Shown in pieces: positions 3,907 through 55,845 of a DNA stretch of 64,000 bases. This stretch comes from Halovenus carboxidivorans. Its GTDB lineage: Archaea; Halobacteriota; Halobacteria; Halobacteriales; Haloarculaceae. The stretch covers positions 1-64,000 of the forward strand of contig NZ_WUUT01000003.1 of the NCBI RefSeq assembly GCF_009831575.1. The letters run 5' to 3'. The first letter of the stretch is position 1, and each line of letters starts with the position of its first letter. Under the pieces are notes generated by a model that was not told the origin of the DNA, did no database searches, and saw only the letters and a list, made by a program, of their open reading frames with translations. A program made the position numbers and the translations under genes.

Positions 3907-4206
3907 TCAGAACGGGAACCGCCGCCGGATCTCCTCGAGGAAGTCGGAGTCGTCCTCGTCGGGAGCCGTTCCGTTGCCGATCGCGTGCTCCTTGGCGAAG
4001 ATGACCGTTCGTCCGTTCTTCTCGGTCACCTCGATGAGTCCGTCCTCGTTCAACTCGGCGAGGGCCTGTTCGAGGGTGTCGATGTCTTCCTCAACGAGCG
4101 CCCGGAGATCGAACACCGTGGTTCCGGTCTCCATCCGATCGGCAAGCGCATCGAGGACGGCCACCTCTGTCTCGTCGCGGTCACGGTACTGCTCCTTCGC
4201 TCGCAT
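3907..4206 (-). CDS. small winged-helix DNA-binding protein (DUF6432-like)
   Basis: 99 aa. Residues ~15-70 form a winged-helix pattern: EVAVLDALADRMETGTTVFDLRALVEEDIDTLEQALAELNEDGLIEV, then a beta wing (TEKNGRTVIFAKE). The tail is acidic and ends in EEIRRRFPF. Probable transcription regulator of unknown target. A TATA element and a perfect short palindrome lie directly over its predicted transcription start, so it may control itself. It is divergent from purC. Confidence 0.72.
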   Translation of the reverse strand: MRAKEQYRDRDETEVAVLDALADRMETGTTVFDLRALVEEDIDTLEQALAELNEDGLIEVTEKNGRTVIFAKEHAIGNGTAPDEDDSDFLEEIRRRFPF

Positions 4207-43257: not shown

Positions 43258-44028
43258 CTACTTCTCGCGGCGCTCCCGTTCGTCCGACGCGCGGTCGAGA
43301 CGCTGTGTTCCGTCCCGGAAGACGCCTTGCAGCGTCCGCGCCTCCCGCGGCGTCAGTTGCGCCCGGCCGAGCACGCGGCGGAACATCCGCTCGGTTTTCG
43401 CCCGCTTCTCCTCGGGGTGGCCGACGGCATCGAGATACTCGCCGAAGTACTCCTGGACGCGCTCGACTTCCGATTTCTCGGCGAGTTCGTGGATCTGGTC
43501 GGGGTGTTGGGTCCGCTCGACGGTCACCTGCCGGAGTTCGTAGAAGACGATCGTGGCGGCCTGTGCGAGGTTCAGGACCGGATACGAGTCGTCGGCGGGG
43601 ATCGAACAGATCACGTCGAGCGCCGCGAGTTCGTCGTTCGTCAGTCCGACCCGCTCGCGGCCGAAGACGACGGCCACGTCGCCGTCGACTCCCGCCAGGT
43701 GATCCGGCAGGTCGGCGGCGGTCACCGCGGGGTAGCGAACGTGATTCGCCGGGTCCTCGTTCGTCGTCGCGGTGCAGGCGACGGTGTGATACCGCTCGGC
43801 CAACTGCTCGAAGGTGAGTTCGGTCGCGTTCGGCAGGATGTCCTCGCGGGCCTGTCCGGCGAAGCCGTAGGCCTCCCCGTCGGGGTCGAGTTCCGGCGGA
43901 TCGACCAGCAGTAGCTCCGACAGCCCGAAGTTTTTCATCGAGCGGGCGATCGACCCGACGTTGCCCGGCGTCTCCGCGTCGACGACGGCAACGGCGATCT
44001 CCGGTCCGGCGCGCTGGTCGCTGGCCAT
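43258..44028 (-). CDS. trmJ: tRNA (Cm32/Um32) 2'-O-methyltransferase, TrmJ-like SPOUT enzyme
   Basis: SPOUT-class RNA 2'-O-methyltransferase. 256 aa from the ATG at 44028 (MASDQRAGPEIAVAVVDAETPGNVGSIARSMKNFG). The trefoil-knot SAM motifs are DGDVAVVFGRERVGLTNDELAALDVICSIP and SYPVLNLAQAATIVFYEL. The C-terminal helical segment (EYFGEYLDAVGHPEEKRAKTERMFRRVLGRAQLTPREARTLQGVFRD) matches TrmJ. Longer in-frame extensions lack homology. It marks the left core edge of the accessory island. Confidence 0.92.
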   Translation of the reverse strand: MASDQRAGPEIAVAVVDAETPGNVGSIARSMKNFGLSELLLVDPPELDPDGEAYGFAGQAREDILPNATELTFEQLAERYHTVACTATTNEDPANHVRYPAVTAADLPDHLAGVDGDVAVVFGRERVGLTNDELAALDVICSIPADDSYPVLNLAQAATIVFYELRQVTVERTQHPDQIHELAEKSEVERVQEYFGEYLDAVGHPEEKRAKTERMFRRVLGRAQLTPREARTLQGVFRDGTQRLDRASDERERREK

Positions 44029-44409
44029 GCTTGGATCTGCTACGGGGACAGGTGAAATAAGCGGTCGGAAACGGATCGATGTCGGGAAGGTTCTCGCCCG
44101 ATCTGGTATACCGACAGACACCCTGCTGGCACCGCTACCAGCCAACGTGCGAGACTCAAAGGACGAATACAACAATCCGATTGCGCCTGTTCCAAGCAAT
44201 CTACCTGGGTTAGCCGATTAGTAGACCTGCGTATTGACCGCTGAGGATCTTGGCAGCGTTCGTATGTTTTGTGAAGGCCGTGTAAGATGGAGTGCGCCAG
44301 TCTTGCACGGCATTCTTCTCAAATATCGGGTGAGAAAACCGGTCAGTACAGGTGTCATGCATATTATCTCAAGGAATATATTCGGGGTCCGATACCAACC
44401 TGTGTGAAC
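44029..44409. other. 381-bp gap at the left edge of the accessory island
   Basis: No reading frame here looks like protein. GC falls abruptly after about 44110. It holds TATTGACCGCT (44232-44242) and the 35-bp imperfect palindrome at 44277-44311, both with counterparts at the right edge near 54 kb, then an AT-rich run up to the next gene's stop. It looks like a recombination boundary rather than a gene region. Confidence 0.6.
44277..44311 (+). repeat. left 35-bp palindromic repeat flanking the nos island
   Basis: Imperfect palindrome: GCCGTGTAAGATGG (44277-44290) and, inverted, CAGTCTTGCACGGC (44298-44311). It matches the element at 54071-54105 at 29 of 35 positions, in the same orientation, ~9.8 kb away. 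The arms contain the shared box CATCTTGCACGGC. It may be a mobile-element end, a recombination site, or a hairpin ending the minus-strand gene at 44410. Confidence 0.75.
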
Positions 44410-44799
44410 TTATTTCAGTCGAGTGTTTCCACCGTCAGTCGACAGGGAATCGTCCTCAGTCTCGCCCGTCGATGGTCCACTCCGAATAACGATGTATAGG
44501 ATCAGGGCCGCGATCAAGAAATCGAACGTGTGCTCGATGAGATGATGAAGTACCATTGGTGTGTATCCCATCACGGTTCCAGCACCGATGACCGAACGCA
44601 TAAACAGCGCTCCGACCGCCACCGCGATCAGCAAATACCGTCTTGACTGCCGCTGACGGTAAGCGAACAGCGCTATCACAAATAAGAGTCCAGTCCCGAG
44701 GCTGGCCAGTAGTATGATCCCAAGGAGAAGCGGTGAGGCTTCACCTGCCCACCCGTGGTGCGCATACAACAGTGTAACGACCCTGTCCGCTGGGATCAT
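44410..44799 (-). CDS. multi-helix membrane protein (DUF7471-like)
   Basis: 129 aa, four hydrophobic segments: SPLLLGIILLASLGTGLLFVIALFAY, YLLIAVAVGALFMRSVIGAG, MVLHHLIEHTFDFLIAALILYIVI among them, with His residues (AHHGWAG, LHHLIEH) that could bind metal or heme. The C-terminal tail is acidic. It is divergent from a winged-helix regulator, a pairing seen repeatedly in haloarchaea. Function unknown; the His content and the nos neighbours suggest a copper or redox role, which is inference. Confidence 0.72.
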   Translation of the reverse strand: MIPADRVVTLLYAHHGWAGEASPLLLGIILLASLGTGLLFVIALFAYRQRQSRRYLLIAVAVGALFMRSVIGAGTVMGYTPMVLHHLIEHTFDFLIAALILYIVIRSGPSTGETEDDSLSTDGGNTRLK

Positions 44800-44938
44800 C
44801 GTACGCTTCGTTGTTGCTCTGCCGTTATGAATGTCGAGGTACGCTACTCGAAATCAAGCGATTCGACGCTCTCCAACACAAACCGAATCGCGTAGTTTAG
44901 ATATCCTAAGAGCATAGCTGTAGGTAGGTGACTAACCA

Positions 44939-45457
44939 GTGACCAATACACGGTCGCGCATCCGCGACTGCATTAGCCGAAACCCCGGGATCCATTTCAA
45001 CGATATCACCCGGGAACTCGACATTGCGACCGGTCAGACACAGTACCACCTCCGGAAGCTCACCCGAGCAGGTCACTTAGACAAGGAATCTATTGCAGGC
45101 CGCACGCACTACTATCCGCCCACGTATTCCGCATGGGAGCGAGAAGTGATTGCGCTGCTTCGCCGAGAAACGACACGCGAACTCGTATTGTTTCTGTTGC
45201 GCAACGACGCGACACCACCAGAAGAACTCGCAGCGCAACTCGACCTCGCACGGAGTACTGTCGAGTGGCATCTCTCACGACTTACAGAACATGATATCGT
45301 CCGCAAAGAGCCGATGGATGCCGACGACACCCGGATTGTCGTCACGCTCCCGGAGAAGGAAGCAATCTATCGACTGCTCAGAGAGATCGAACCGCACCTG
45401 CTTGATCGTCTTGTCGACCGGTTCTCGCGGCTCACTGACGATCTTCTTGATGAGTAA
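44939..45457 (+). CDS. tandem winged-helix transcriptional regulator
   Basis: 172 aa from a GTG at 44939. Two HTH modules: RSRIRDCISRNPGIHFNDITRELDIATGQTQYHLRKLTRAGHL (residues ~4-48) and TRELVLFLLRNDATPPEELAAQLDLARSTVEWHLSRLTEHDIV (~77-121), followed by a helical C-terminus that may dimerise. It heads the accessory island, divergent from the membrane protein gene and 69 bases before nosL, so it is the likely local regulator. The signal sensed is unknown; two cysteines are absent from the HTH turns. Confidence 0.82.
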   Translation: MTNTRSRIRDCISRNPGIHFNDITRELDIATGQTQYHLRKLTRAGHLDKESIAGRTHYYPPTYSAWEREVIALLRRETTRELVLFLLRNDATPPEELAAQLDLARSTVEWHLSRLTEHDIVRKEPMDADDTRIVVTLPEKEAIYRLLREIEPHLLDRLVDRFSRLTDDLLDE

Positions 45458-45526
45458 TCACGCTTTTCTGGTTTTTCGAGACGAATACCAGATTTGGTTT
45501 GATGCCGAAGTGCAAACGTTTTGCTG

Positions 45527-46183
45527 ATGAACCGACGAACAGTCCTCCAGACCTCCGCTGCAGTCGGCGTCGCCTCGGTAGCTGGTTGTTTGGGTGCGAG
45601 TGGCTCGAACGCTGAGGACCGACCCGATCCAGTCGATCTCTCAGGGACGAAATTCGACTACCAGGGTGGGATGGAGATCGGGACTCACGGCGGACCGAAC
45701 GGTCAGATCTTCTACCGTGACAACCAGCCCAAGCCAGTCGCAGGCGCCGCGAGCCTGCGACTCACCCACGAGGGCCACGGTGATGAGGGTAGCGAATCCG
45801 GTGACCAGGCGAATCTAGCGTGGTTTCACACACTAGTCCACGGACTCTTTCCGTACCACTTTGAACGGCTGGATCGTGGCTGGGATGCTCAGGTGATCTA
45901 CGTCACAGATTACAGTACCGTCGAGTGGGAACTCCCCGAGGACAGTTCTCGGCCGACCATGCCGTCGCCGACGGGTGCAGAGACTTTCGCCGACGCGGAA
46001 ACGCTCTATTATGTGGGTGAGAGCACCGTGATGGGCGGGATGGGGCCCGCACTGCACCCGTTCTCCGAGGAGTCCGATGCTCGCTCCTTCGCAGAGCAGT
46101 ACGACGGGACGGTTTACGAGTTCGGCGATATCGACCGAACGCTGATCGACGGTCTGCGGCGGGGCGCCGGCATGAACTCCTAA
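45527..46183 (+). CDS. NosL-like Tat lipoprotein lacking the usual cysteines
   Basis: 218 aa. Tat signal MNRRTVLQTSAAVGVASVAGC with the lipobox Cys at 21. The NosL-type fold is visible in THGGPNGQIFYRDNQPKP, VIYVTDYSTVEWELPED, FADAETLYYVGESTVMGGMGPALHPFSEESDARSFAEQYDGTVYEFGDI. NosL proteins normally carry a Cys-x-x-Cys-Gly-Met copper motif at the start of the domain; here that place reads KFDYQGGMEIG, with no Cys. Met-rich MGGMGPA remains. Probably a copper-handling protein of altered specificity. Confidence 0.83.
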   Translation: MNRRTVLQTSAAVGVASVAGCLGASGSNAEDRPDPVDLSGTKFDYQGGMEIGTHGGPNGQIFYRDNQPKPVAGAASLRLTHEGHGDEGSESGDQANLAWFHTLVHGLFPYHFERLDRGWDAQVIYVTDYSTVEWELPEDSSRPTMPSPTGAETFADAETLYYVGESTVMGGMGPALHPFSEESDARSFAEQYDGTVYEFGDIDRTLIDGLRRGAGMNS

Positions 46184-46249
46184 CTCGATTCGGGAGACAC
46201 ACCAACGAAGCTAAATTCGGCTATATCTCAACTCTCTTTCGTGACCTCG

Positions 46250-48139
46250 ATGTTCGGCTCGGCAATCGACAGAGCCATTCCGCTACGACTGGTCGGCATC
46301 GTGGGTTTTGTACTCGTCACCCTCTCAGTTGGCGTGTTTGTTATTGGCGCGGAGGGGACGGCTCCGGAACCAGTTCCGTTCGACGAGACGGTTGAGACGG
46401 GGATGGCTGCGGAAAACGAGCAGACGCTACGGGCGGCGGACGCAACCCTCCCCAAAGCCGAGGTCTTTCACTCGCAGTATCAGTTTGTTGTTGGCTACCG
46501 CGGCGTCGGATACATGATCGACGAATTACAGCAGTCGGGCCACACCCAGCAGTTTGGCCAACCCGTTGCGATCTACGTCTCCGATTATGCAGGAACGGAC
46601 CCAACGCTGACGGAGGAAAGGTATCCGCAGACTGAAACTGAAGTCGACTGGGTCCGCGCTCGGGATGCGACATTCGTCGTCGACAGCGCGGCCCGGACCC
46701 CAGCTGGCGATGCGATTATTCCGTTCAGTTCGACCGGAGATGCTGCACAGTTCGCCGAGCAGCACGGCGGTGACCTGCTCGATTGGGAGGAACTCCGGAG
46801 CAAGAACATTGATCTCGATCACGCTGGCCTCGTCCGTGAGGGTGTCGAGACGAAACAAGCGAGTGCAAATGACAGCGTCGCTGCCGCCGAACCTCTGATC
46901 AACCGCTCAACGTCGGTTATCGTCGGTGAGGGCGCCCCGACGATCCAGGCGGCGATCGACGCCACAACCCCAGGAACAACGATCCGCGTTCCCCCGGGGA
47001 CGTACACGGAAACGCTTCAGGTCAACCGACCAGTGACTATCCGAGGCCACAACGCGACGATACGTGGCGACGGCAACGGGTCCGTTATCACGATTGCCAG
47101 CGATGATGTTACACTCAGCGGACTCAGTATCGAGGGTGTCGGCCAATCGACCGAACCCGAGGAGGGTGAAGTTAATACCCAGCAGTGGGATTCGTTCGTC
47201 GAGTCCGGATACGGCCACAGCGACGCAGCCATCGAGGCAGAAAACGTCTCCAATCTGTTCGTCCACGAAGTCAGTATCACGACTCCGACCAGCGGCATTG
47301 TACTCCGTGATGTCAACGGTACTGTCGTCGATGGAATCTCCGTTGTTGGGTCCGAGGACCACAGAGATGGGTTCATGGGTGTTCTCTCGATCCGGTCACC
47401 GGTCGTCGTCCAGCATAGCACCTTCGAGGACGGCCGTGATGGGGTGTATCTCCACCGGGCCGATGGGTCAGTGGTCCGGGACAACCGTTTTGTCTCGAAC
47501 CGATACGGCATCCATCTGATGTACACCTCCGACGCGCTGCTGGCCGACAACGTCGCCCGACGGGAGGCCTTCGCTGGAATCACGATTATGACTGAACCCG
47601 CCAGCAATGCCGTCGTCGGAAACGACGTTCGAAACTCAACTTCTGGACTCGATATTAGTGGCACACACACGTACGTTGGGGAGAATATCATCGCTAACAA
47701 CGACCGCGCCATCTTGGGCGGCACCGACCAATCGCTGTACGAACGTAACGTTCTCTACGGCAACGAACTCGGCTTCCGAACCGGAACAATCCGCCCTTCG
47801 AACCGGGTCGTGAGAAATGACTTTGTCGACAACGAGCAATCGGTACAGGTCGGCTCTGGGCCCCTTCGGATCTGGACACACGACAGCAACGGCAACTACT
47901 GGTCGAAGCGACCGACAGCGTTCAGCGACGGTTTGTACTCCCCGACAGCCCGGCTTGATTCCAACCTTCGAGAGCCGGGAGTCGGCGCACTCTCCCGATC
48001 ACCGGCAGCGACGATACTCGAAACCGTCAGAGAAACAGTGGCTGGCTCCCGGGAGAGCCAGGTTGTCGATACCGCGCCACGCTCAGAGCCCGTTCGCCCA
48101 CAGACAATCACAGCACTTGAAGAAACTCATGACGACTAA
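46250..48139 (+). CDS. nosD: NosL-like domain fused to NosD (copper-site maturation protein)
   Basis: 629 aa. An N-terminal membrane helix (LRLVGIVGFVLVTLSVGVFVIGA) precedes a NosL-like domain at ~60-205 (VAIYVSDYAGTDPTLTEER ... PFSSTGDAAQFAEQHGGDLLDW), then the right-handed beta-helix of NosD/CASH repeats from ~215 (GAPTIQAAIDATTPGTTIRVPPGTYTETL, GVYLHRADGSVVRDNRFVSNRYGIHLMYTSDALLADN). NosD works with NosFY in assembling the CuZ site of N2O reductase. A CTATATC element ~26 bases before makes the ATG at 46250 the likely leaderless start (GTG at 46241 is the alternative). nosF overlaps by 11 bases. Confidence 0.85.
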   Translation: MFGSAIDRAIPLRLVGIVGFVLVTLSVGVFVIGAEGTAPEPVPFDETVETGMAAENEQTLRAADATLPKAEVFHSQYQFVVGYRGVGYMIDELQQSGHTQQFGQPVAIYVSDYAGTDPTLTEERYPQTETEVDWVRARDATFVVDSAARTPAGDAIIPFSSTGDAAQFAEQHGGDLLDWEELRSKNIDLDHAGLVREGVETKQASANDSVAAAEPLINRSTSVIVGEGAPTIQAAIDATTPGTTIRVPPGTYTETLQVNRPVTIRGHNATIRGDGNGSVITIASDDVTLSGLSIEGVGQSTEPEEGEVNTQQWDSFVESGYGHSDAAIEAENVSNLFVHEVSITTPTSGIVLRDVNGTVVDGISVVGSEDHRDGFMGVLSIRSPVVVQHSTFEDGRDGVYLHRADGSVVRDNRFVSNRYGIHLMYTSDALLADNVARREAFAGITIMTEPASNAVVGNDVRNSTSGLDISGTHTYVGENIIANNDRAILGGTDQSLYERNVLYGNELGFRTGTIRPSNRVVRNDFVDNEQSVQVGSGPLRIWTHDSNGNYWSKRPTAFSDGLYSPTARLDSNLREPGVGALSRSPAATILETVRETVAGSRESQVVDTAPRSEPVRPQTITALEETHDD

Positions 48140-48896
48140 CCAGACAACAGCATCCCGTTCGAACGGTGCCTCAGACGACGAGACTGCTCTCGTTGCCGAT
48201 GGAGTTACGCGAGAGTTTGGCTCGGTGACCGTCGTTAAAGATGTCTCGCTGACAGTCCGCCGCGGCGAACTTCACGCCCTGATCGGCCCAAACGGTTCTG
48301 GAAAAACAACTCTGTTAGAACTGCTAGCTGGCATCCGACAACCGACCACTGGAACAGTTCGCGTTGAAGCCGAGACACAGCCCCGCACAATCGGGTATCT
48401 CCCGCAGCGCCCCGAGTTCCGGCCGTCGTTTACTGCCCTTGAGACGCTCACATTCTACGCGTCATTGGTCGATGACGACCCCGAGGCCCTACTCTCACGC
48501 GTTGGGCTGAGCGATGCGGCCAACCGTCGTGTCGAGGACCTCTCTGGCGGGATGACTCGACTGTTGGCGCTGGGGCAAGCACTGGCCGGTGATCCCCCGA
48601 TCGTGTTGCTCGACGAACCGGGAAGCGGTCTCGATCCGGGAATGCGCGCGCGAATGATCGACATCGCCCGGTCGCTGGCAGCGGAGGGTGCTGCTGTCCT
48701 CTACAGCACTCACGACCTCGCGCTCGCTGAACAGCACTGCGACCGGATCAGCCTCGTTGACGCCGGTCACGTTGTCGAGACAGCGCCACCGGAGGCGCTG
48801 CTCACAGACCACGACACGACGACCCTCAGGGGTGTCTTCGAGGGAGTGGCGGGCGGATCGGACGACGCTGTCACTGTACTGGGGGCCGACCGATGA
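48129..48896 (+). CDS. nosF: ABC transporter ATPase NosF
   Basis: 255 aa ATP-binding subunit. Walker A GPNGSGKTT, Q-loop YLPQRPEFRP, signature LSGGMTRLLALGQALAGDP, Walker B IVLLDEPGSGLD, and the switch His in YSTHDLALAEQH. Its place between nosD and nosY and the NosF-like size identify it. With NosY it powers NosD-dependent copper or sulfur delivery across the membrane. Start ATG 48129 overlaps nosD by 11 bases; nosY overlaps by 4 (ATGA), so all three are translationally linked. Confidence 0.88.
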   Translation: MTTNQTTASRSNGASDDETALVADGVTREFGSVTVVKDVSLTVRRGELHALIGPNGSGKTTLLELLAGIRQPTTGTVRVEAETQPRTIGYLPQRPEFRPSFTALETLTFYASLVDDDPEALLSRVGLSDAANRRVEDLSGGMTRLLALGQALAGDPPIVLLDEPGSGLDPGMRARMIDIARSLAAEGAAVLYSTHDLALAEQHCDRISLVDAGHVVETAPPEALLTDHDTTTLRGVFEGVAGGSDDAVTVLGADR

Positions 48897-49717
48897 CCGA
48901 CACTCCTGCAGTGTCGCCGGCACAGTCGGTACAGTCAGTTGCGGTCCGCGAACTGTTCACCGTCGGTCGTGCTCGAAGTCTGCTAGCGCTGTTCGCGGGA
49001 CTGGTGGCAGTCGTGGTCGGCATCGGTGTTCTCGGCGGCGCACCGCGATACCTCCCGACTGTCGCAGATCTGCTCTTACCAATGGAGTTGCTCGTCCCAA
49101 CGGTCGCGTTCGCCCTTGGCTATCGGCCGATTGCCTCCGACGCAGAACGTGGTGAGTTGGCTGTGCTCAAAACGTACCCGCTCCGTGTTCGAGACTACGT
49201 CTTCGGCGTCTTTCTGGGCCGTGCGATCGCACTGGTGGTAATGCTCCTTGTGCCGCTGGTCTGCCTCGGCGGGTATCTTGCGGTGACCAGTACCGAGACA
49301 CCCTCGTTACTCGCAACGCAGCAAGGCGCTGATTCGCCAATCATCTACGCCCGGTTTCTTCTGTTGACAGTTCTGTTCGGACTGACAATTCTCGCCCTCT
49401 CGCTTGCGGTGTCGGCGGTGGCCCGTTCGCGCCGGACGGCGCTCGTTCTCGCCGGTGCGGCGCTGCTCTTTGTTGTCGTGGTCGTCGATCTGTTGATTCT
49501 TCGTGGGTTCGCTGCCGGACGGATCGGCAGTGATCTGTTGTTGGTCGTCCTCGCGGTTTCGCCGACCAGCGCGTACCGTGGCCTCGTCTTCGAGACTGCT
49601 CTCGACACGCCAGGACTTGCTGTTGCACAGGCGTCGGTCCCGCTCAGCCTCGCTGGCCTCGTCCTCTGGCTAGTTGGTTCGCTACTCGTCACCGCCGCTG
49701 CACTCAGCCGCGAGTGA
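48893..49717 (+). CDS. nosY: ABC transporter permease NosY
   Basis: 274 aa with six transmembrane segments, for example LLALFAGLVAVVVGIGVLGG, LVMLLVPLVCLGGYLAV, LLTVLFGLTILALSLAVSAVA and LVLAGAALLFVVVVVDLLI. The cytoplasmic stretch SDAERGELAVLKTYPLRVRDYVFGVFLGRA between the first helices is characteristic of NosY/ABC-2 permeases. Overlaps nosF by four bases. No nosZ or nosR follows; the next genes are on the opposite strand. Confidence 0.87.
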   Translation: MTDTPAVSPAQSVQSVAVRELFTVGRARSLLALFAGLVAVVVGIGVLGGAPRYLPTVADLLLPMELLVPTVAFALGYRPIASDAERGELAVLKTYPLRVRDYVFGVFLGRAIALVVMLLVPLVCLGGYLAVTSTETPSLLATQQGADSPIIYARFLLLTVLFGLTILALSLAVSAVARSRRTALVLAGAALLFVVVVVDLLILRGFAAGRIGSDLLLVVLAVSPTSAYRGLVFETALDTPGLAVAQASVPLSLAGLVLWLVGSLLVTAAALSRE

Positions 49718-49936
49718 AGATCTCCAAACATCCACCTTTCTCAGTAGCTCTGTCGATACCCAATTCGGCAGACCGACACACGGTTCGTGAATTCAGTGTC
49801 GAGCAGTGACCGAACTGCAGGTGTTCGTTGAGTTCAACACGAACGCTGCTGGGGTTCGACAGAAGGCGATCTGCAGATCAGCAAAAGTTGTCTGTTTAAT
49901 CATGAACTCAGTTCCGGCGTCTACAATTGCTTTATG

Positions 49937-49960
49937 ACCCGTCTAACATTTGCGACGGGT
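49937..49960. terminator. stem-loop between convergent nosY and the P19-like gene
   Basis: Inverted repeat ACCCGTC (49937-49943) / GACGGGT (49954-49960) with a 10-base AT-rich loop, in a 285-bp gap between convergent genes. It suits a terminator for one or both transcripts. The rest of the gap (49718-49936) shows no convincing gene. Confidence 0.4.
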
Positions 49961-50002
49961 ATCAGAACTGATTCGATTCGAACGAGCTTGGCAACGGCTA
50001 TT

Positions 50003-51106
50003 CTATTCGACAGCGAGAGTCACGTCGTTCATACCGCCCATGAGTCCGCCAAATGCCGTCTCGTAGCCTTCGTGTCGTGCGGTCTGTGGCTGGGTTGTTA
50101 CCTGTAATGTGAGCTCGTCACCAGATTCAACGCTATCCACCACTGCACCGTAGTGGTAGTTTAGTTCTGGATCCAGGGTTCGGGTAAACTCACCATCATA
50201 GACTGTCTCGTCTCCCCGCAACAATGTGCCTTCTATACCCATCGCAGGGATGACCATCTGATTATATCGTGTCCGTGAGGAGACAGCGATGTACTGGCCA
50301 TCTCCATCAATACCGGCTGGAGGCGATTCTATAACAGTGACGACAAACTGTGCATCGTTGCTCATTCCAGTGCCGATCACCCTCCCGGGAAGGGTACTCT
50401 CCGAGGGTGCACGTGAGTCTGGCATCATCTCCATCTCCCTCGGGTCGACAGCACCATTCGTTCCGGCCTCAGTATCGAAGCGTTCGAATGAAATCTCGTT
50501 TCGCTCCTGTTCACTGTACTCGAATGGAATGTCAGCAGTTGTCGGTTCAGAGAAACGATCCTGAAACGACCCAGTTCGTCGGGTTGTCATGGCACCAACA
50601 TTCAGCCTGACCGTATACGCACCATCGCCGCTGAGACCAAAGTTCGCACCATAATGGAACCCCATTGGCTGTGAGAGCATCGGATAGATCGTTTCCTGTG
50701 ACACCAGTGAGTCATCCTGGTAGATTTCAACAGACAGTCCAGTGTCGGGGAGGACAGTCCCCGTTTCAGGATCCCACACATTCGCCATCAAATGGATAGC
50801 GTCATCATCCTCGATCTCAGTGAGAGTAGTTGAGTCACCGTTGACGTTCCAGAATCGGTGAGCGTAACTGTACATAAGCCCGAAAGCGTAGTCGCCTTGC
50901 TCGGCTGTTCCTGACATCTTCATCCCCTCGATGTGGCTTGGAATGTAGATGCCATCAGGTCGGTTCTCAACAATAGATGGGACACCGCTAGATTGTGTCT
51001 GAGAATTGGACGGTTCATCGTCTGACCCAGCCGAGCCAAGACAGCCGGCAACTGCGGCTGACACCGTGAAAGCTGACGCAGTCTGAAGAAATCGACGGCG
51101 ATCCAT
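50003..51106 (-). CDS. P19/Tpd-like periplasmic metal-binding Tat lipoprotein (DUF7350-like)
   Basis: 367 aa. Tat signal MDRRRFLQTASAFTVSAAVAGC with lipobox Cys, Ser/Gln-rich linker, then a P19-like domain: IPSHIEGMKMSGTAEQGDYAFGLMYSYAHRF and YPMLSQPMGFHYGANFGLSGDGAYTVRLNVG. The His/Met set (HIEGMKM, PM, FHYGANF) corresponds to the copper/iron sites of P19, FetP and FtrA. A second beta domain follows (SNDAQFVVTVIESPPAGIDGDGQYIAV). P19 proteins serve iron uptake with FTR1 permeases in bacteria; no FTR1 is seen here. Divergent neighbours are metal-related, so metal acquisition is likely. Confidence 0.78.
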   Translation of the reverse strand: MDRRRFLQTASAFTVSAAVAGCLGSAGSDDEPSNSQTQSSGVPSIVENRPDGIYIPSHIEGMKMSGTAEQGDYAFGLMYSYAHRFWNVNGDSTTLTEIEDDDAIHLMANVWDPETGTVLPDTGLSVEIYQDDSLVSQETIYPMLSQPMGFHYGANFGLSGDGAYTVRLNVGAMTTRRTGSFQDRFSEPTTADIPFEYSEQERNEISFERFDTEAGTNGAVDPREMEMMPDSRAPSESTLPGRVIGTGMSNDAQFVVTVIESPPAGIDGDGQYIAVSSRTRYNQMVIPAMGIEGTLLRGDETVYDGEFTRTLDPELNYHYGAVVDSVESGDELTLQVTTQPQTARHEGYETAFGGLMGGMNDVTLAVE

Positions 51107-51176
51107 GTATCGTGGTTAGTCAAAGAGAGAAAGACAATTTTGGTATGTCCGTCGAATCGCGAATAAAACGCTGTCG

Positions 51177-52481
51177 TTAGGACGACGATTCGGGCTGAGG
51201 CATCGGTACCGATCGGTGTCGTCGCGGTGGAATGAGGAAATATCCACGACGGCGAACGAAAATATACTCCAGAATGCCATTATTGACGCGCTGGCGAATC
51301 GCCGGCGTGACCTGCGTCAAATCCGTGCCGTTCATCGCACGACGAACCTCCTCAAAATCAGAAACTCGACGCTGGAGAGACGGGAAATGAAGGCTCGCAA
51401 CGCTCTGATCAGACCCGATATCGTCGGTCGATTCAAAATGGCGACGGAGGAGCTTTACATTCCCCTCTGCGTCTCGGTTCGCGCGGGCGGCCTTCTGTGC
51501 GTGACCGACTCGCCCATGCGTTTCCGCATCTGCTTCGATGTTGTCGACGAACTCATCAATACCACTGTTGTCTTCCAGGTTCGACCCAATTCCCTCAACA
51601 AGATCGTTCTCAGCATGCCCCGGACTGAACATCTCCATCACGCGCTCATCGAAGGACTGTTCTTCGTACCAGTCATCAAGACGCTGGCGGAGATTTGAGA
51701 GTGCCATCGTCGTACCCCCCGAAAACGGGCCTTCTTCTATTGTGACGTAGTCTTCAGTCGCCTGGTTTCCTTTGAAGCCGGCCTCAAATCCCATGAACAG
51801 TGGTGAGTCTTCCGGAACTGGATTTGAATCGGGGATGCCTTCAGCGTCTTGGCGCTCGGCAGGAAGTCCAGCGCCAACGAACCCGGTTCGGCGTGAGTCA
51901 ATCGTTGCCACGTCGGTTAGTTGGGCTTCAACGGACTCGCCATTTGCCGTGTCACGTTCGCCACGGAGTGCCTGCTCAGCTTCAAGGACAACATCGGCAC
52001 GGTCGCTTGCGAGGTGGAGTACTGCATCTTGGGTATCGAATGTCGGGGACTCAAACGGGGAGAGGGCCCTCGGTTGTGGGAGTGTCACCTGCTCAGGAAG
52101 TGATTGGTCGAACCGCTCAAAGTACGACGCCGAGTAGGCGATCGTATGCAACAATCCCTCGTTACTCCACTCGTAGCCTCTATCCAATACAGTCAGAGAT
52201 TCCTCAAGTGTTGATCGGGTTTCGGGAGACGGTCGGCCCTCTTCGTCGAAGTTGACATAGAGCAGGATCTGATGCTTTGGGAGCTGTGAATTATCGTACT
52301 TATCATGTCTGATATACTCACGCCAAGCGTGTTGACGCGGTGGCTTGGCGGCTGGATCACCGGATGGGATTGGCTCAGAGCCGCCATTGTTCAGACAGGC
52401 GCTCAGTGCACTCGCACCGCCAATCGCCACAGCTGTTTTGAGAATTTGTCTGCGTGACGGATTGCCATCAAACGAGTCCAT
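51177..52481 (-). CDS. DyP-peroxidase-like Tat lipoprotein (DUF7405-like)
   Basis: 434 aa. Start ATG 52481 gives MDSFDGNPSRRQILKTAVAIGGASALSAC, a Tat signal with a lipobox Cys. The mature part has a distant DyP/EfeB-type layout: a ferredoxin-like first half (HQILLYVNFDEEGRPSPETRSTLEESLTVLDRGYEWS ... AVLHLASDRADVVLEAEQAL) and a second half with GFEAGFKGN, HGRVGHAQKAARANRD (place of the proximal-His region) and KLLRRHFES. True DyP GXXDG is not evident, so heme binding is uncertain. It and the P19-like gene form a minus-strand pair resembling EfeB/EfeO-type iron systems. Confidence 0.65.
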   Translation of the reverse strand: MDSFDGNPSRRQILKTAVAIGGASALSACLNNGGSEPIPSGDPAAKPPRQHAWREYIRHDKYDNSQLPKHQILLYVNFDEEGRPSPETRSTLEESLTVLDRGYEWSNEGLLHTIAYSASYFERFDQSLPEQVTLPQPRALSPFESPTFDTQDAVLHLASDRADVVLEAEQALRGERDTANGESVEAQLTDVATIDSRRTGFVGAGLPAERQDAEGIPDSNPVPEDSPLFMGFEAGFKGNQATEDYVTIEEGPFSGGTTMALSNLRQRLDDWYEEQSFDERVMEMFSPGHAENDLVEGIGSNLEDNSGIDEFVDNIEADAETHGRVGHAQKAARANRDAEGNVKLLRRHFESTDDIGSDQSVASLHFPSLQRRVSDFEEVRRAMNGTDLTQVTPAIRQRVNNGILEYIFVRRRGYFLIPPRRHRSVPMPQPESSS

Positions 52482-52588
52482 TGATATCCTAACTATGAGA
52501 GCCAACAGCAAGCAATATTTTGGTCCAGTTCTCGAATAGGCAAATTGATTTTTCATTCAATACGTCCTAAGCACTCAGTGCAGAGGGC

Positions 52589-52747
52589 TCAATCTACCAG
52601 TACTCGACTGAATAGGTGGAAATTCACATATGAAGAAAGAGCCAGACCAACAATAACCCCAACCCCACCAATTAGCCAATATAATTTGCTAATTATGGTC
52701 ATACTCACCAGTATAGCAACACCAAGAAGGGTGACCTGAGTTAGCAC
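52589..52747 (-). CDS. 52-residue two-helix membrane protein
   Basis: A short reading frame starting with GTG at 52747 and ending at a TGA at 52589-52591. It begins MLTQVTLLGVAILVSMTIIS and contains two hydrophobic helices separated by KLYW, then YVNFHLFSRVLVD. A TTTTTAATATG element ~26 bases upstream of the GTG fits a leaderless promoter. Lower GC than the core genome, as the rest of the island. Function unknown; it could be a small partner of the DyP-like/P19-like pair on the same strand. Confidence 0.45.
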   Translation of the reverse strand: MLTQVTLLGVAILVSMTIISKLYWLIGGVGVIVGLALSSYVNFHLFSRVLVD

Positions 52748-53133
52748 ACCTAATGATAGTTGGTACCCATATTAAAAACTCAGCTTTGGGAATTTTCACG
52801 CAATTACTAGAAAACTGAGCGGTTATAAATGATTGTTTGACACGCTAAACAAGTACCGTTGTGGACCGTTGGCCGCCGATGGTGCGGGGGCGGCAGCCTG
52901 GGCAGCCCTGAGTACCTGATCCTGAGCTTCCTTCTATTCCGAGCCGGCTCCCGAGCTGTTAGTACTTGTAGTTGGGGACTGGAAATCGGAGCTGCGTTGT
53001 CGCTGTTCTTTGATCGCGTTTCGTGGCTCGGAACTCTCCCCAGCATCCCAATTATGATTGTTCTAACACGCATGGTCCCGAGTCGACTCGTTGACCTCAG
53101 TGTCGTTATGACAACCGAAGAAAGTGAGAACTC
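52748..53133. other. 386-bp gap, no convincing gene
   Basis: Starts AT-rich with a plus-strand TATA-like GGTTATAAATG near 52820-52829, then turns abruptly GC-rich at about 52860. Frames on both strands give compositions unlike protein. The GC switch suggests joined fragments of different origin. Confidence 0.35.
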
Positions 53134-53340
53134 ATGGTCGGGTGGCATCAGGACGACACGCACACTGATCTCGGGAAGTGCCACTTCCAAATCGACACCC
53201 AGGGAGAAACGGTTCAACGAGAGACGGCGACGTTTCTTGATTCGCATCCGTTGAACGTGTTCGACCAGCGAATCGACGATTTTGTGTACATCCTCACCGC
53301 ACTAACGTGGGAAAATACCATCCCAGAAGTCCCCCAATGA
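53134..53340 (+). CDS. hypothetical small protein, possibly a fragment
   Basis: 68 aa: begins MVGWHQDDTHTDLGKCHFQID and contains TFLDSHPLNVFDQRIDDFVYILTALTWE. The composition is acidic and plausible for a haloarchaeal protein, with a conserved-looking His-x-Asp-Asp segment followed by a helix-rich C-terminus. An in-frame TGA just upstream prevents a longer form, so it may have lost an N-terminus. It sits beside a transposase remnant. I do not recognise the family. Confidence 0.42.
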   Translation: MVGWHQDDTHTDLGKCHFQIDTQGETVQRETATFLDSHPLNVFDQRIDDFVYILTALTWENTIPEVPQ

Positions 53341-53407
53341 GCGATTCGGTGATCGGCGGTACCCCCCGAATCGACTGACTGTTTCGCCCCTCCTCTCGTT
53401 CTGGTTT

Positions 53408-53878
53408 TCAAATTGCAATTGGGGTGAGGGTGGCCTCACAGTATATGATCCCCGGTACTGGCGTCGGTTGCATCATATTTGCCGGTTGCTCACGGGCTTG
53501 CCCCAGACCGTAGTTTTGATCGCTATTTGTTGTCGGCTCAAGCTGTGTATGTAGTAATTCGTTTGTTTCTGGATCGACGGCAGCGTACAGCCAGTATTGT
53601 TCATCATCGAGTTGGATCACGGTCTCGTCGACGGCAACGTGATTCGGATTGTGTCCATTTGTGGGCTGTAAATCAGCCTTGTGAACCCAATTATGGACGG
53701 TGGATCGTGCGCGTTGAACACCAAATATTTCGAGAATTGAAACAGTATTAGATAATGATAAGCCAGCAAGATGGAGTTGAATACTGAGCTTCATCAACAG
53801 TCGTGGTGTTGCTTCTCGCTCCACAAAATCTAAGTCACACTGGGCGATACTACCGCTGAGGCGTGTGTTTTCGGGCAT
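53408..53878 (-). pseudogene. truncated IS6-family (ISH) transposase
   Basis: From the ATG 53878, residues 1-118 are an IS6-type haloarchaeal transposase: RLLMKLSIQLHLAGLSLSNTVSILEIFGVQRARSTVHNWVHKADLQP and HVAVDETVIQLDDEQYWLYAAVDPETNELLHTQLEPTTN, including the first catalytic Asp (D84). Homology stops at about 53525; the remaining 38 residues are unrelated, and the second Asp and the Glu of the DDE triad are missing. The element is inactive; the joint at ~53525 marks a deletion or insertion break. Confidence 0.85.
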
Positions 53879-54138
53879 GGACACTTTGAAAACACTACGC
53901 CTCACTCTTCAATCCTTATCTGAACACCGCCGTTGAAATCAGTCGGCGTACATAGGTACAGGAGAGGGTGTTGGCACGCGTCGTACCCGATGTTGCTGGC
54001 TTGGATTGCATTCTATTTAGGCACATACTGCGGATAGCACACCAGTCGTCTCTGGATTCTATCAAGACGTGCCGTGCAAGATGGACGGCGCATATCTTGC
54101 ACGGCTGAATGAACAGGGAGTGTCTCTTTGCCGGAGGG
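53879..54138. other. gap holding the IS remnant's upstream end and the right palindrome
   Basis: AT-moderate sequence with no protein-like frame. The first ~100 bases probably belong to the insertion sequence's left end; I could not identify its terminal inverted repeat. The right 35-bp palindrome lies at 54071-54105. Confidence 0.4.
54071..54105 (+). repeat. right 35-bp palindromic repeat flanking the nos island
   Basis: GCCGTGCAAGATGG (54071-54084) and, inverted, ATATCTTGCACGGC (54092-54105): arms GCCGTGCAAGAT/ATCTTGCACGGC pair perfectly over 12 bases. Matches the left copy at 44277-44311 at 29 of 35 positions in the same orientation. It lies 34 bases past the stop of the small membrane protein gene at 54139. 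Confidence 0.78.
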
Positions 54139-54348
54139 TTAGTCGGATCCGGCGACGGGGAGTGGCACGCTCTTGACGACGTGTAGATAAAGAATCGTTA
54201 CGACAAGTCCGACAAGCACAAAACTTCCAACTGACACCAGAAGGCCGGCGAACGGGACCGGGAAGCCCCGAACAGCGAGCATTCCCAGCGCGACAAAGAC
54301 GATACCTGCAAACAGTGCCTGCATCAGCGACGCGCCGTTCGCAGTCAT
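54139..54348 (-). CDS. small two-helix membrane protein
   Basis: 69 aa: MTANGASLMQALFAGIVFVALGMLAVRG forms one helix and FAGLLVSVGSFVLVGLVVTILYLHVV the second, with a short tail KSVPLPVAGSD. It ends 34 bases before the right 35-bp palindrome (reading on the minus strand). Function unknown. Its high hydrophobic content and clean start support it as a real gene. Confidence 0.58.
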   Translation of the reverse strand: MTANGASLMQALFAGIVFVALGMLAVRGFPVPFAGLLVSVGSFVLVGLVVTILYLHVVKSVPLPVAGSD

Positions 54349-54666
54349 GTCACGCCGTTCATCTGCCTATCGGATAAGTCCCCCTCCTCTCACGACGACG
54401 GGTACCGCTGTGCTGAATAGATACTCTGCATCTTGCAAGGCATTTCTGATATATTCCTGATATACAGTATTCCTCAGCGGTCACTGTCTCACCTGTATTG
54501 ACCGCTCGATTCCCCTTGCTGTTCAAGAATCAAAGGATGCTGCATATTCGCCTTCCATCTTGCACGGCACATCCTGACAAAATCAAAAAGAACTGTTTCG
54601 TTATCTCCGGCACGAACCCCTGCGGAAAGCGGGGAGATTGAAGTGTGGCCCCTCCCTTGCTCGGGT
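54349..54666. repeat. right island edge with half-copies of the palindrome box
   Basis: This 318-bp gap contains CATCTTGCAAGGCA (54429-54442) and CCATCTTGCACGGCA (54555-54569), both half-copies of the 35-bp element's arm. It also has a perfect 8-bp inverted repeat AGCGGTCA (54476-54483) / TGACCGCT (54499-54506); TATTGACCGCT here repeats the left-edge sequence at 44232. No gene is visible. GC returns to core level by about 54600. Confidence 0.6.
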
Positions 54667-55845
54667 ATGGAACCCGACCTCACTCAATTGGACGAGTATC
54701 TCGACGAGGCCGGTGTCGACGGCTATCTCGTCGACGCCGACTCCGAAGACGCAGACCAGTACTACCTCTCCGGCTTCGACGCCCCCGACCCGTTCGTCAC
54801 GCTGTACGACGGCGACGTACGACTGCTGTTCACCCGCAGTCTGGAGTACGGCCGCGCAAAGAAGGAGGCCCGAGCCGAGACGGTCGAGCGCGGGGCCGAT
54901 TTCGGCTACGCCGAGAAGGCCCAGGAGTACGGCCCCCAGGAGGCCCGGAGTCGCGTCATCGCGGCGTTTCTCGACAGCCACGGCGTCGGCTCGGTCGCCA
55001 CCCCACCCCGGTTTCCCCTCCAGACTGCCGACGGCCTGCGGGAGCAGGGCATCGAGGTGACGGCGGACGATTCGGGCGCAGTGACCGAGGTCCGGGCGAC
55101 GAAGACCGACGAGGAAATCGAGTACATCCGCGAGGCTCAGCGCGCCAACGAGGCCGCGATGGCCCGCGCCGAGGAACTGATCAGTGCTGCCGAGACCAAC
55201 GCCGACGGCGAACTCGTCCTCGACGGGGCGGTGTTGACCAGCGAGCGCGTCACCGAGGAGATCGAAGTCACGCTGTTGCGCCACGGCTGTGCGCTGGACG
55301 AGACCATCGTCGCCTGCGGCGCGGACGCCGCTGACCCACACGACCGCGGGAGCGGTCCGTTGCTCACCGACGAACCGATCATCATCGACATCTTCCCGCG
55401 CAACAAACGCTCGCGGTACCACGCCGACATGACGCGGACCTTCTGTCACGGCGACCCGAGCGAGGCCCTCCGGGAGTGGTTCGAGTTGACCGACCGCGCG
55501 CGCGAGGCCGCTATCGAGGCCGTCGAACCGGGCGTCGAAACCGACGTGGTCCACGGCGCCGCCTGTGACGTGTACGAGGACGCCGGCCTCCCGACGCTGC
55601 GAAGCGACCCGACGACCGAGACTGGCTTCATCCACAGCACCGGCCACGGCCTCGGCCTCGATGTCCACGAGATGCCGAGCGTCGCCGAGAGCGGCGAGAC
55701 GCTGCAACCCGGCCACGTCATCACCATCGAACCGGGCCTGTACGACCCCGAGGTCGGCGGGGTCCGGATCGAGGATCTACTCGTCGTCACCGAAGACGGT
55801 TACGAGAATCTGACGGAGTACGACATCGAACTCGCGGTCGCCTGA
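54667..55845 (+). CDS. M24 family aminopeptidase (Xaa-Pro type)
   Basis: 392 aa. N-terminal creatinase-like domain ([42 protein letters not shown]) and a C-terminal pita-bread catalytic domain. Metal ligands are visible: two Asp in [23 protein letters not shown], His in [17 protein letters not shown], Glu in VITIEPGLY and Glu in [11 protein letters not shown]. It likely removes N-terminal residues next to proline or cleaves Xaa-Pro dipeptides. Start ATG 54667. It marks the right core edge of the island. Confidence 0.9.

Follow-up and report, generated by a model that had tools for sequence, protein, structure and literature searches.

Candidate site-specific recombination sites dispersed among haloarchaea, with two direct copies near the edges of a nos-type gene island

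An accessory gene island of Halovenus carboxidivorans lies between two directly oriented copies of an imperfect palindrome, and this palindrome belongs to a family dispersed across haloarchaeal genomes. We give an even chance to the reading that members of the family are sites of the type used in site-specific recombination. The window referred to throughout is the whole stretch analyzed, the first 64,000 nucleotides of contig NZ_WUUT01000003.1; the features discussed are collected in Table 1.

Table 1. Features of the island and its surroundings (window coordinates)
Feature	Position	Strand	Remarks
trmJ-like SpoU methylase	43258..44025	-	left chromosomal neighbor
CGGAAA, left junction	44066..44071		possible target duplication or microhomology
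Copy 1, left half, class C (TAGTAGACCTGCGTATTGACCGCTGAGG...)	44216..44276	+	box TATTGACCGCT at 44232-44242
Site copy 1, core	44277..44311	+	27-bp core 44281-44307 TGTAAGATGGAGTGCGCCAGTCTTGCA; model R1, 85.2 bits
Copy 1, right half	44312..44351	+	terminal box TCAGTACAG (44343-44351), 35 nt from core
DUF7471 (-), HVO_0163-type HTH, NosL, NosL-NosD fusion, NosF-like ATPase, NosY-like permease	44410..49717
DUF7350 and DUF7405 proteins	50003..52556	-
IS6-family transposase relict	53408..53905	-	truncated, below family cut-off
Copy 2, left half, class A (GGCACATACTGCGGATAGC...)	54013..54070	+	alignment A4
Site copy 2, core	54071..54105	+	27-bp core 54075-54101 TGCAAGATGGACGGCGCATATCTTGCA; R1, 36.4 bits
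Fragment of another cluster (small membrane-protein gene)	54106..54396	-	291 bp
Site copy 3, variant core TGCAAGATGCAGAGTATCTATTCAGCA	54412..54442	-	right arm of TGCTGAATAG type
Site copy 4, variant core TGCAAGATGGAAGGCGAATATGCAGCA	54538..54568	-	weak R1 match 54467-54568
Copy 4, left half, class A	54569..54620	-	alignment A4; outer end adjoins right insertion junction
CGGAAA, right junction	54623..54628
M24 peptidase	54670..55845	+	right chromosomal neighbor

Palindromic copies in the window and across haloarchaea

A preliminary description of the window had noted a pair of 35-mers in the same orientation around a low-GC island, and both observations hold: the 35-mers beginning at 44277 and 54071 agree at 29/35 positions (83%), and the GC content of the block is 0.555, against 0.652 to its left and 0.672 to its right. 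The additional half-copies (54428-54442 and 54555-54568, both on the minus strand) and the recurrence of TATTGACCGCT at 44232 and 54496 are likewise present as described. Within the 64-kb window, no other plus-strand 35-mer matches the 44277 copy at 22 or more of its 35 positions. The 14-mer half GCCGTGYAAGATGG occurs without mismatch only at 44277, 54071, and 54555 (minus strand) in the whole 3.25-Mb genome; at two mismatches, there is no genome-wide excess over a reversed-pattern control. Allowing up to three mismatches, the window holds 16 matches where 6.7 ± 2.4 are expected, a count reached in 0 of 100 shuffles. Dyad symmetry extends to 14 of 17 paired positions at 54071 and to 11 of 17 at 44277. 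Since further 35-mers in the window score equally high on symmetry alone and the arms are imperfect, it is the repetition rather than the palindromicity that is unusual. Over 41 bp, the segments 54055-54095 and 54544-54584 are inverted relative to each other, with 85% complementarity.

Relatives of these copies are widespread. An exact-pattern scan of species-level genomes returned 38 loci, of which 35 are in haloarchaeal records, from Halovenus, Halonotius, Halorhabdus, Halorubrum, Haloarcula, Halorientalis, Halobellus, Halapricum, Salinibaculum, and Salinadaptatus. A model of the core palindrome and right flank (R1) matched in 51 of 118 haloarchaeal genomes, with 24 matches in Halovenus salina alone, although R1 was trained on palindromic copies and the site counts depend on it. 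The repeats are therefore not specific to this island. In H. salina, the many copies are spread over the chromosome and three plasmids; the left half of copy 1 is 78 to 79% identical to the left halves of the H. salina copies L055, L061, and L048, and its right half is common to L052, L070, and L077. All 37 scored copies are intergenic, 10 between divergent and 8 between convergent genes and the remainder between tandem gene pairs. The exact core pattern is absent from IMG/VR viral contigs and from phage records, which argues against a viral origin. We found no paper that names this sequence.

Two sets of shared segments were seen around individual copies. On H. salina plasmid unnamed1 (L054, L064, L086, L051), a 1.38-kb block common to different contexts comprises a left half of about 210 bp, the core, and a hemolysin-family gene, and ends at the stop codon of that gene; another copy on this plasmid has only the left half and core in common. 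A 573-bp segment shared by L072 and L074 was considered as a mobile unit and set aside, as it reads as a shared stretch bounded by an IS605-like end and the edge of a contig.

Core architecture and reassortment of half-sites

The consensus core, drawn from 37 to 76 copies, is TGCAAGAT-RGANGGCGCRN-RTCTTGCA, a 27-bp sequence in which inverted 8-bp arms enclose an asymmetric, conserved 11-bp center. Inverted arms around a short conserved exchange region are also what is expected of a tyrosine-recombinase core. Some variants replace one arm, with a TGCTGAATAG type on the left or a GGTCA, GTCA, or CAGCA type on the right, so strict palindromicity is dispensable. In 12 of 32 copies, a TC[AG][AGT]TACAG box follows on the 3' side of the core at a distance of 30 to 36 nt; elsewhere within 600 bp, the box is almost never seen. 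Several classes of left half, similar to one another in length, can be distinguished, and a few copies (L066, L076, L084) carry inverted boxes on both sides.

Two readings would assign the palindromes a role in gene expression or RNA structure. The arms show no covariation beyond that of shuffles, so the palindrome is a motif at the DNA level and not a hairpin of RNA; with no match in Rfam either, a structured RNA element was rejected. The second reading, in which the copies are operators of a transcription regulator or hairpins for termination or mRNA stability, fits their intergenic position, the strong hairpins predicted for the palindromes (z about -4), and the location of some copies 55 to 100 bp upstream of genes. 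Against it, copies are about as frequent between convergent genes (8) as between divergent ones (10), the neighboring genes are unrelated, no T-run follows the copies, the arms lack covariation, and the asymmetric center is conserved. We regard this reading as improbable, and the terminator-like hairpin raised in the preliminary description is not borne out.

The two halves of the sites behave as separate units. To examine their association, we used 76 distinct copies, after copies more than 92% identical over 100 bp had been collapsed and recent whole-locus duplicates thereby removed. Left flanks at least 68% identical (up to 96%) were found in 53 pairs, and in none of the 53 was the right flank similar; in the pair L200/L203, for example, identity is 96% on the left and 42% on the right. 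An ungapped analysis gave the same picture, with 142 left-similar pairs (at least 60% over 30 bp) whose right identity, 0.284, equals the background of 0.284. There are also 11 reciprocal pairs with similar right and different left flanks. Linkage to the left flank is gone by core position +8 or so, and linkage to the right flank begins at about +18, which places the exchange at the center of the core. This is the position expected of a tyrosine-recombinase site, seen here as a statistical footprint only. The combination of a class A left half with a 44277-like right half occurs naturally in L079 and, as an A2 variant, in the L070 copy at 4096; this is the type of junction that excision between the 44277 and 54071 copies would create.

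Orientation, neighboring recombinases, and known systems

Of 18 pairs of adjacent copies in clusters, 16 are co-oriented, and Halovenus aranensis has six such copies in succession. The genes between clustered sites are accessory (toxin-antitoxin-like genes, a methyltransferase, a resolvase, small paralogues) and lie on either strand. In the H. aranensis array (L233; G002:C42:162000-181000), the six co-oriented sites separate a VapBC-like pair, a serine resolvase, and three paralogous small proteins. We take the resolvase to be coincidental, since the remaining resolvases of the genomes searched are not accompanied by a site.

Tyrosine-recombinase genes, defined as PF00589 genes, recur next to the sites. 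In nine genomes, there are five cases (L215-L219) of a co-oriented site within about 600 bp 3' of such a gene: one in G101 (L215), three in G001 (L216-L218), and one, at about 500 bp, in G106 (L219). An independent set of 35 genomes added two (G067, G077), and G135 shows a different geometry. The estimated expectations are about 0.08 and 0.06 cases, respectively, each below 0.1 per set under an assumption of uniform placement; as sites and integrases both favor accessory DNA, the adjacency count is inflated relative to this assumption. The adjacent recombinases are divergent (201 to 402 amino acids [aa], roughly 20 to 45% identical), and most small recombinases have no site beside them, so that no single recombinase family follows the sites. 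One subfamily of small recombinases was considered for this role and rejected, as only a minority of its 50 loci have a site. Single-domain tyrosine recombinases of about 200 to 250 aa are numerous in haloarchaea and belong to several divergent subfamilies (L253-L302).

The main rival to the recombination-site reading is a relic family of miniature inverted-repeat transposable elements (MITEs). It would make the copies degenerate small mobile repeats of about 130 to 150 bp, non-autonomous, with inverted terminal boxes, a central palindrome, and a putative transposase, their mosaic structure having been produced by ordinary events at the palindrome (recombination, deletion, and insertion). The dispersed, intergenic, multicopy occurrence on plasmids and chromosomes would suit such a family, as would the copies with two-sided inverted boxes and the repetition of CGGAAA at the island junctions. 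The small mobile repeats (SMRs) and MITEs of Haloquadratum (PMC3119063) are a precedent, being of comparable size (about 100 to 150 bp), partly equipped with inverted boxes, and without a known transposase, but the family described here differs from them in its central conserved core and modular halves. That left and right halves travel separately, with the break inside the core, and that neighboring copies tend to be co-oriented both argue against a MITE origin. Moreover, no pair of inverted boxes flanking a transposase was found in 0.57 Mb of loci, so that a transposon with the boxes as its ends was rejected. No target duplication was found at the elements themselves among strains too distant from one another to reveal individual gains or losses. 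We consider the MITE reading unlikely.

A second transposon-based possibility is that the palindromes are near-terminal hairpins of IS200/IS605 elements or remnants of palindrome-associated transposable elements (PATEs). Halovenus genomes are rich in TnpB, and near-terminal palindromes, as well as terminal-only forms of 52 bp, are known from haloarchaeal PATEs (PMC3119063); like the present family, these palindromes are dispersed and transposase-free. They differ from it in that our family has two arms, fixed accessory boxes, and reassorting halves. The core was found at neither end of 30 TnpB loci from seven genomes, several of whose 3' ends have a different hairpin, and in the genomes searched for both, no TnpB gene comes closer than 500 bp to a site. 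This reading is largely refuted, and we assign it a very small probability. The IS6 relict can also be dismissed as the source of the repeats, as the start of its transposase gene is about 170 bp away from copy 2 and members of the family are found where the relict is absent.

Two further parallels come from recombination systems. XerA/dif sites and the att cores of tyrosine recombinases likewise have inverted arms, dyad symmetry, and a short strand-exchange center. Archaeal dif, however, has an 11-6-11 layout (PMC8371274) and is present once per chromosome, whereas the sites described here are 8-11-8, occur in up to 24 copies per genome, plasmids included, and are accompanied by accessory boxes; they are thus not dif sites. 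Integron attC arrays and CALINs, reported in archaeal metagenome-assembled genomes in a paper whose text has no occurrence of Halobacteria (PMC9668308), also place directly oriented sites between accessory genes, with a constant left and a variable right part. The present arrays differ from them in that the genes between sites lie on both strands, not mostly in one orientation as cassette genes do, and in that the 27-bp hairpin stops short of the flanking halves.

The island between trmJ and the M24 peptidase gene

The preliminary description had proposed a comparison of this interval in relatives, and that comparison identifies the block as an insertion with the repeats near its edges. The trmJ and M24 peptidase genes of two congeners are divergent neighbors about 100 bp apart (G015:C239, trmJ 3-710 on the minus and M24 810-1976 on the plus strand; G001:C2, 45847-46593 and 46690-47856, respectively). 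It follows that some 10.5 kb has been inserted in the window. From alignment with the empty spacers, the junctions lie at approximately 44066-44072 and 54621-54628, each of them containing CGGAAA. Copy 1 lies about 190 to 210 bp, copy 2 520 to 540 bp, and copy 4 about 50 bp inside the junctions, so the palindromes are subterminal and do not form the ends of the island. The earlier suggestion of an att-like boundary thus stands in part: an att-like nature best suits the evidence from the whole family, but the palindromes lie 190 to 540 bp inside the true junctions. Since the junctions are off-site and neither empty trmJ-M24 locus contains a site, the island cannot simply have gone into a site that was already there. 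These sites alone do not account for how the block first came to lie between trmJ and M24; it may have arrived by an illegitimate or a transpositional route, CGGAAA being present at both junctions.

Within the island, a separate NosL gene directly precedes the NosL-NosD fusion (46241-48139), in which residues 71-187 form a NosL-like domain (Pfam NosL, E value of 8e-16) on the N-terminal side of the NosD beta-helix. We saw no nosZ among the island genes. The IS6 relict occupies its lowest-GC part. In Haloarcula vallismortis (L071, around 5073), a site splits a nos cluster into NosDFY and HTH-NosL-DUF7471, with a gene order rearranged relative to the window.

By sequence comparison, the block is a mosaic. 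The fragment at 54106-54396 is 91% identical to part of an ABC cluster in another genome (G003:C10) and 87% identical over 210 bp to a segment of G051. This composition bears on a reading restricted to the present island, and compatible with any identity of the repeat, in which illegitimate or homologous recombination of an unrelated kind brought in the nos block, with the site copies hitch-hiking in accessory DNA. We rate it only a little below an even chance. The true junctions outside the sites, with their CGGAAA microhomology, and the 91%-identical fragment speak for it, as does the congener G001, which has DUF7471, HTH, and NosDFY genes at another locus without sites. Two direct copies near both edges, as in other arrays, speak against it, and so does the homology to G003, which begins at the base right after copy 2. 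Of the findings that the preliminary description had said would count against its proposal, the scatter of the family and a relative with nos genes but no repeats were thus both encountered, whereas a terminator-like hairpin was not.

In the recombination-site reading, each site would consist of the 27-bp core with accessory boxes on either side: on the right, TCRRTACAG at a distance of about 35 nt, and on the left, inverted or related boxes at about 40 to 60 nt. A candidate recombinase, most likely of the tyrosine family, would join two sites by exchange within the center, mixing the left and right halves of different sites so that hybrids switch halves inside GANNGCGC. DNA between direct repeats, such as the nos-accessory genes between 44277 and 54071, could then be excised as a circle or captured; exchange between these two copies would release a 9.8-kb circle with a hybrid site, a class A left half joined to a 44277-type right half. 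No integrase was recognized between the two copies, and neither an excised nor a reciprocal product was seen. We infer enzymatic exchange, a tyrosine recombinase, and arrival or potential exit of the island through the two sites. More tentatively, and with somewhat unfavorable prospects, the family could represent an undescribed haloarchaeal site-specific recombination system, an analogue of integrons or mobile cassettes with a putative recombinase, whose exchangeable-half sites let accessory blocks leave or be captured.

Were the copies only relic repeats, they would still constitute an abundant, unnamed intergenic family that complicates the reading of island boundaries. If they are active sites, they would help explain how accessory islands are assembled outside tRNA genes in haloarchaeal chromosomes and megaplasmids, and would provide a sequence tag for mobile gene blocks across many haloarchaeal genera.
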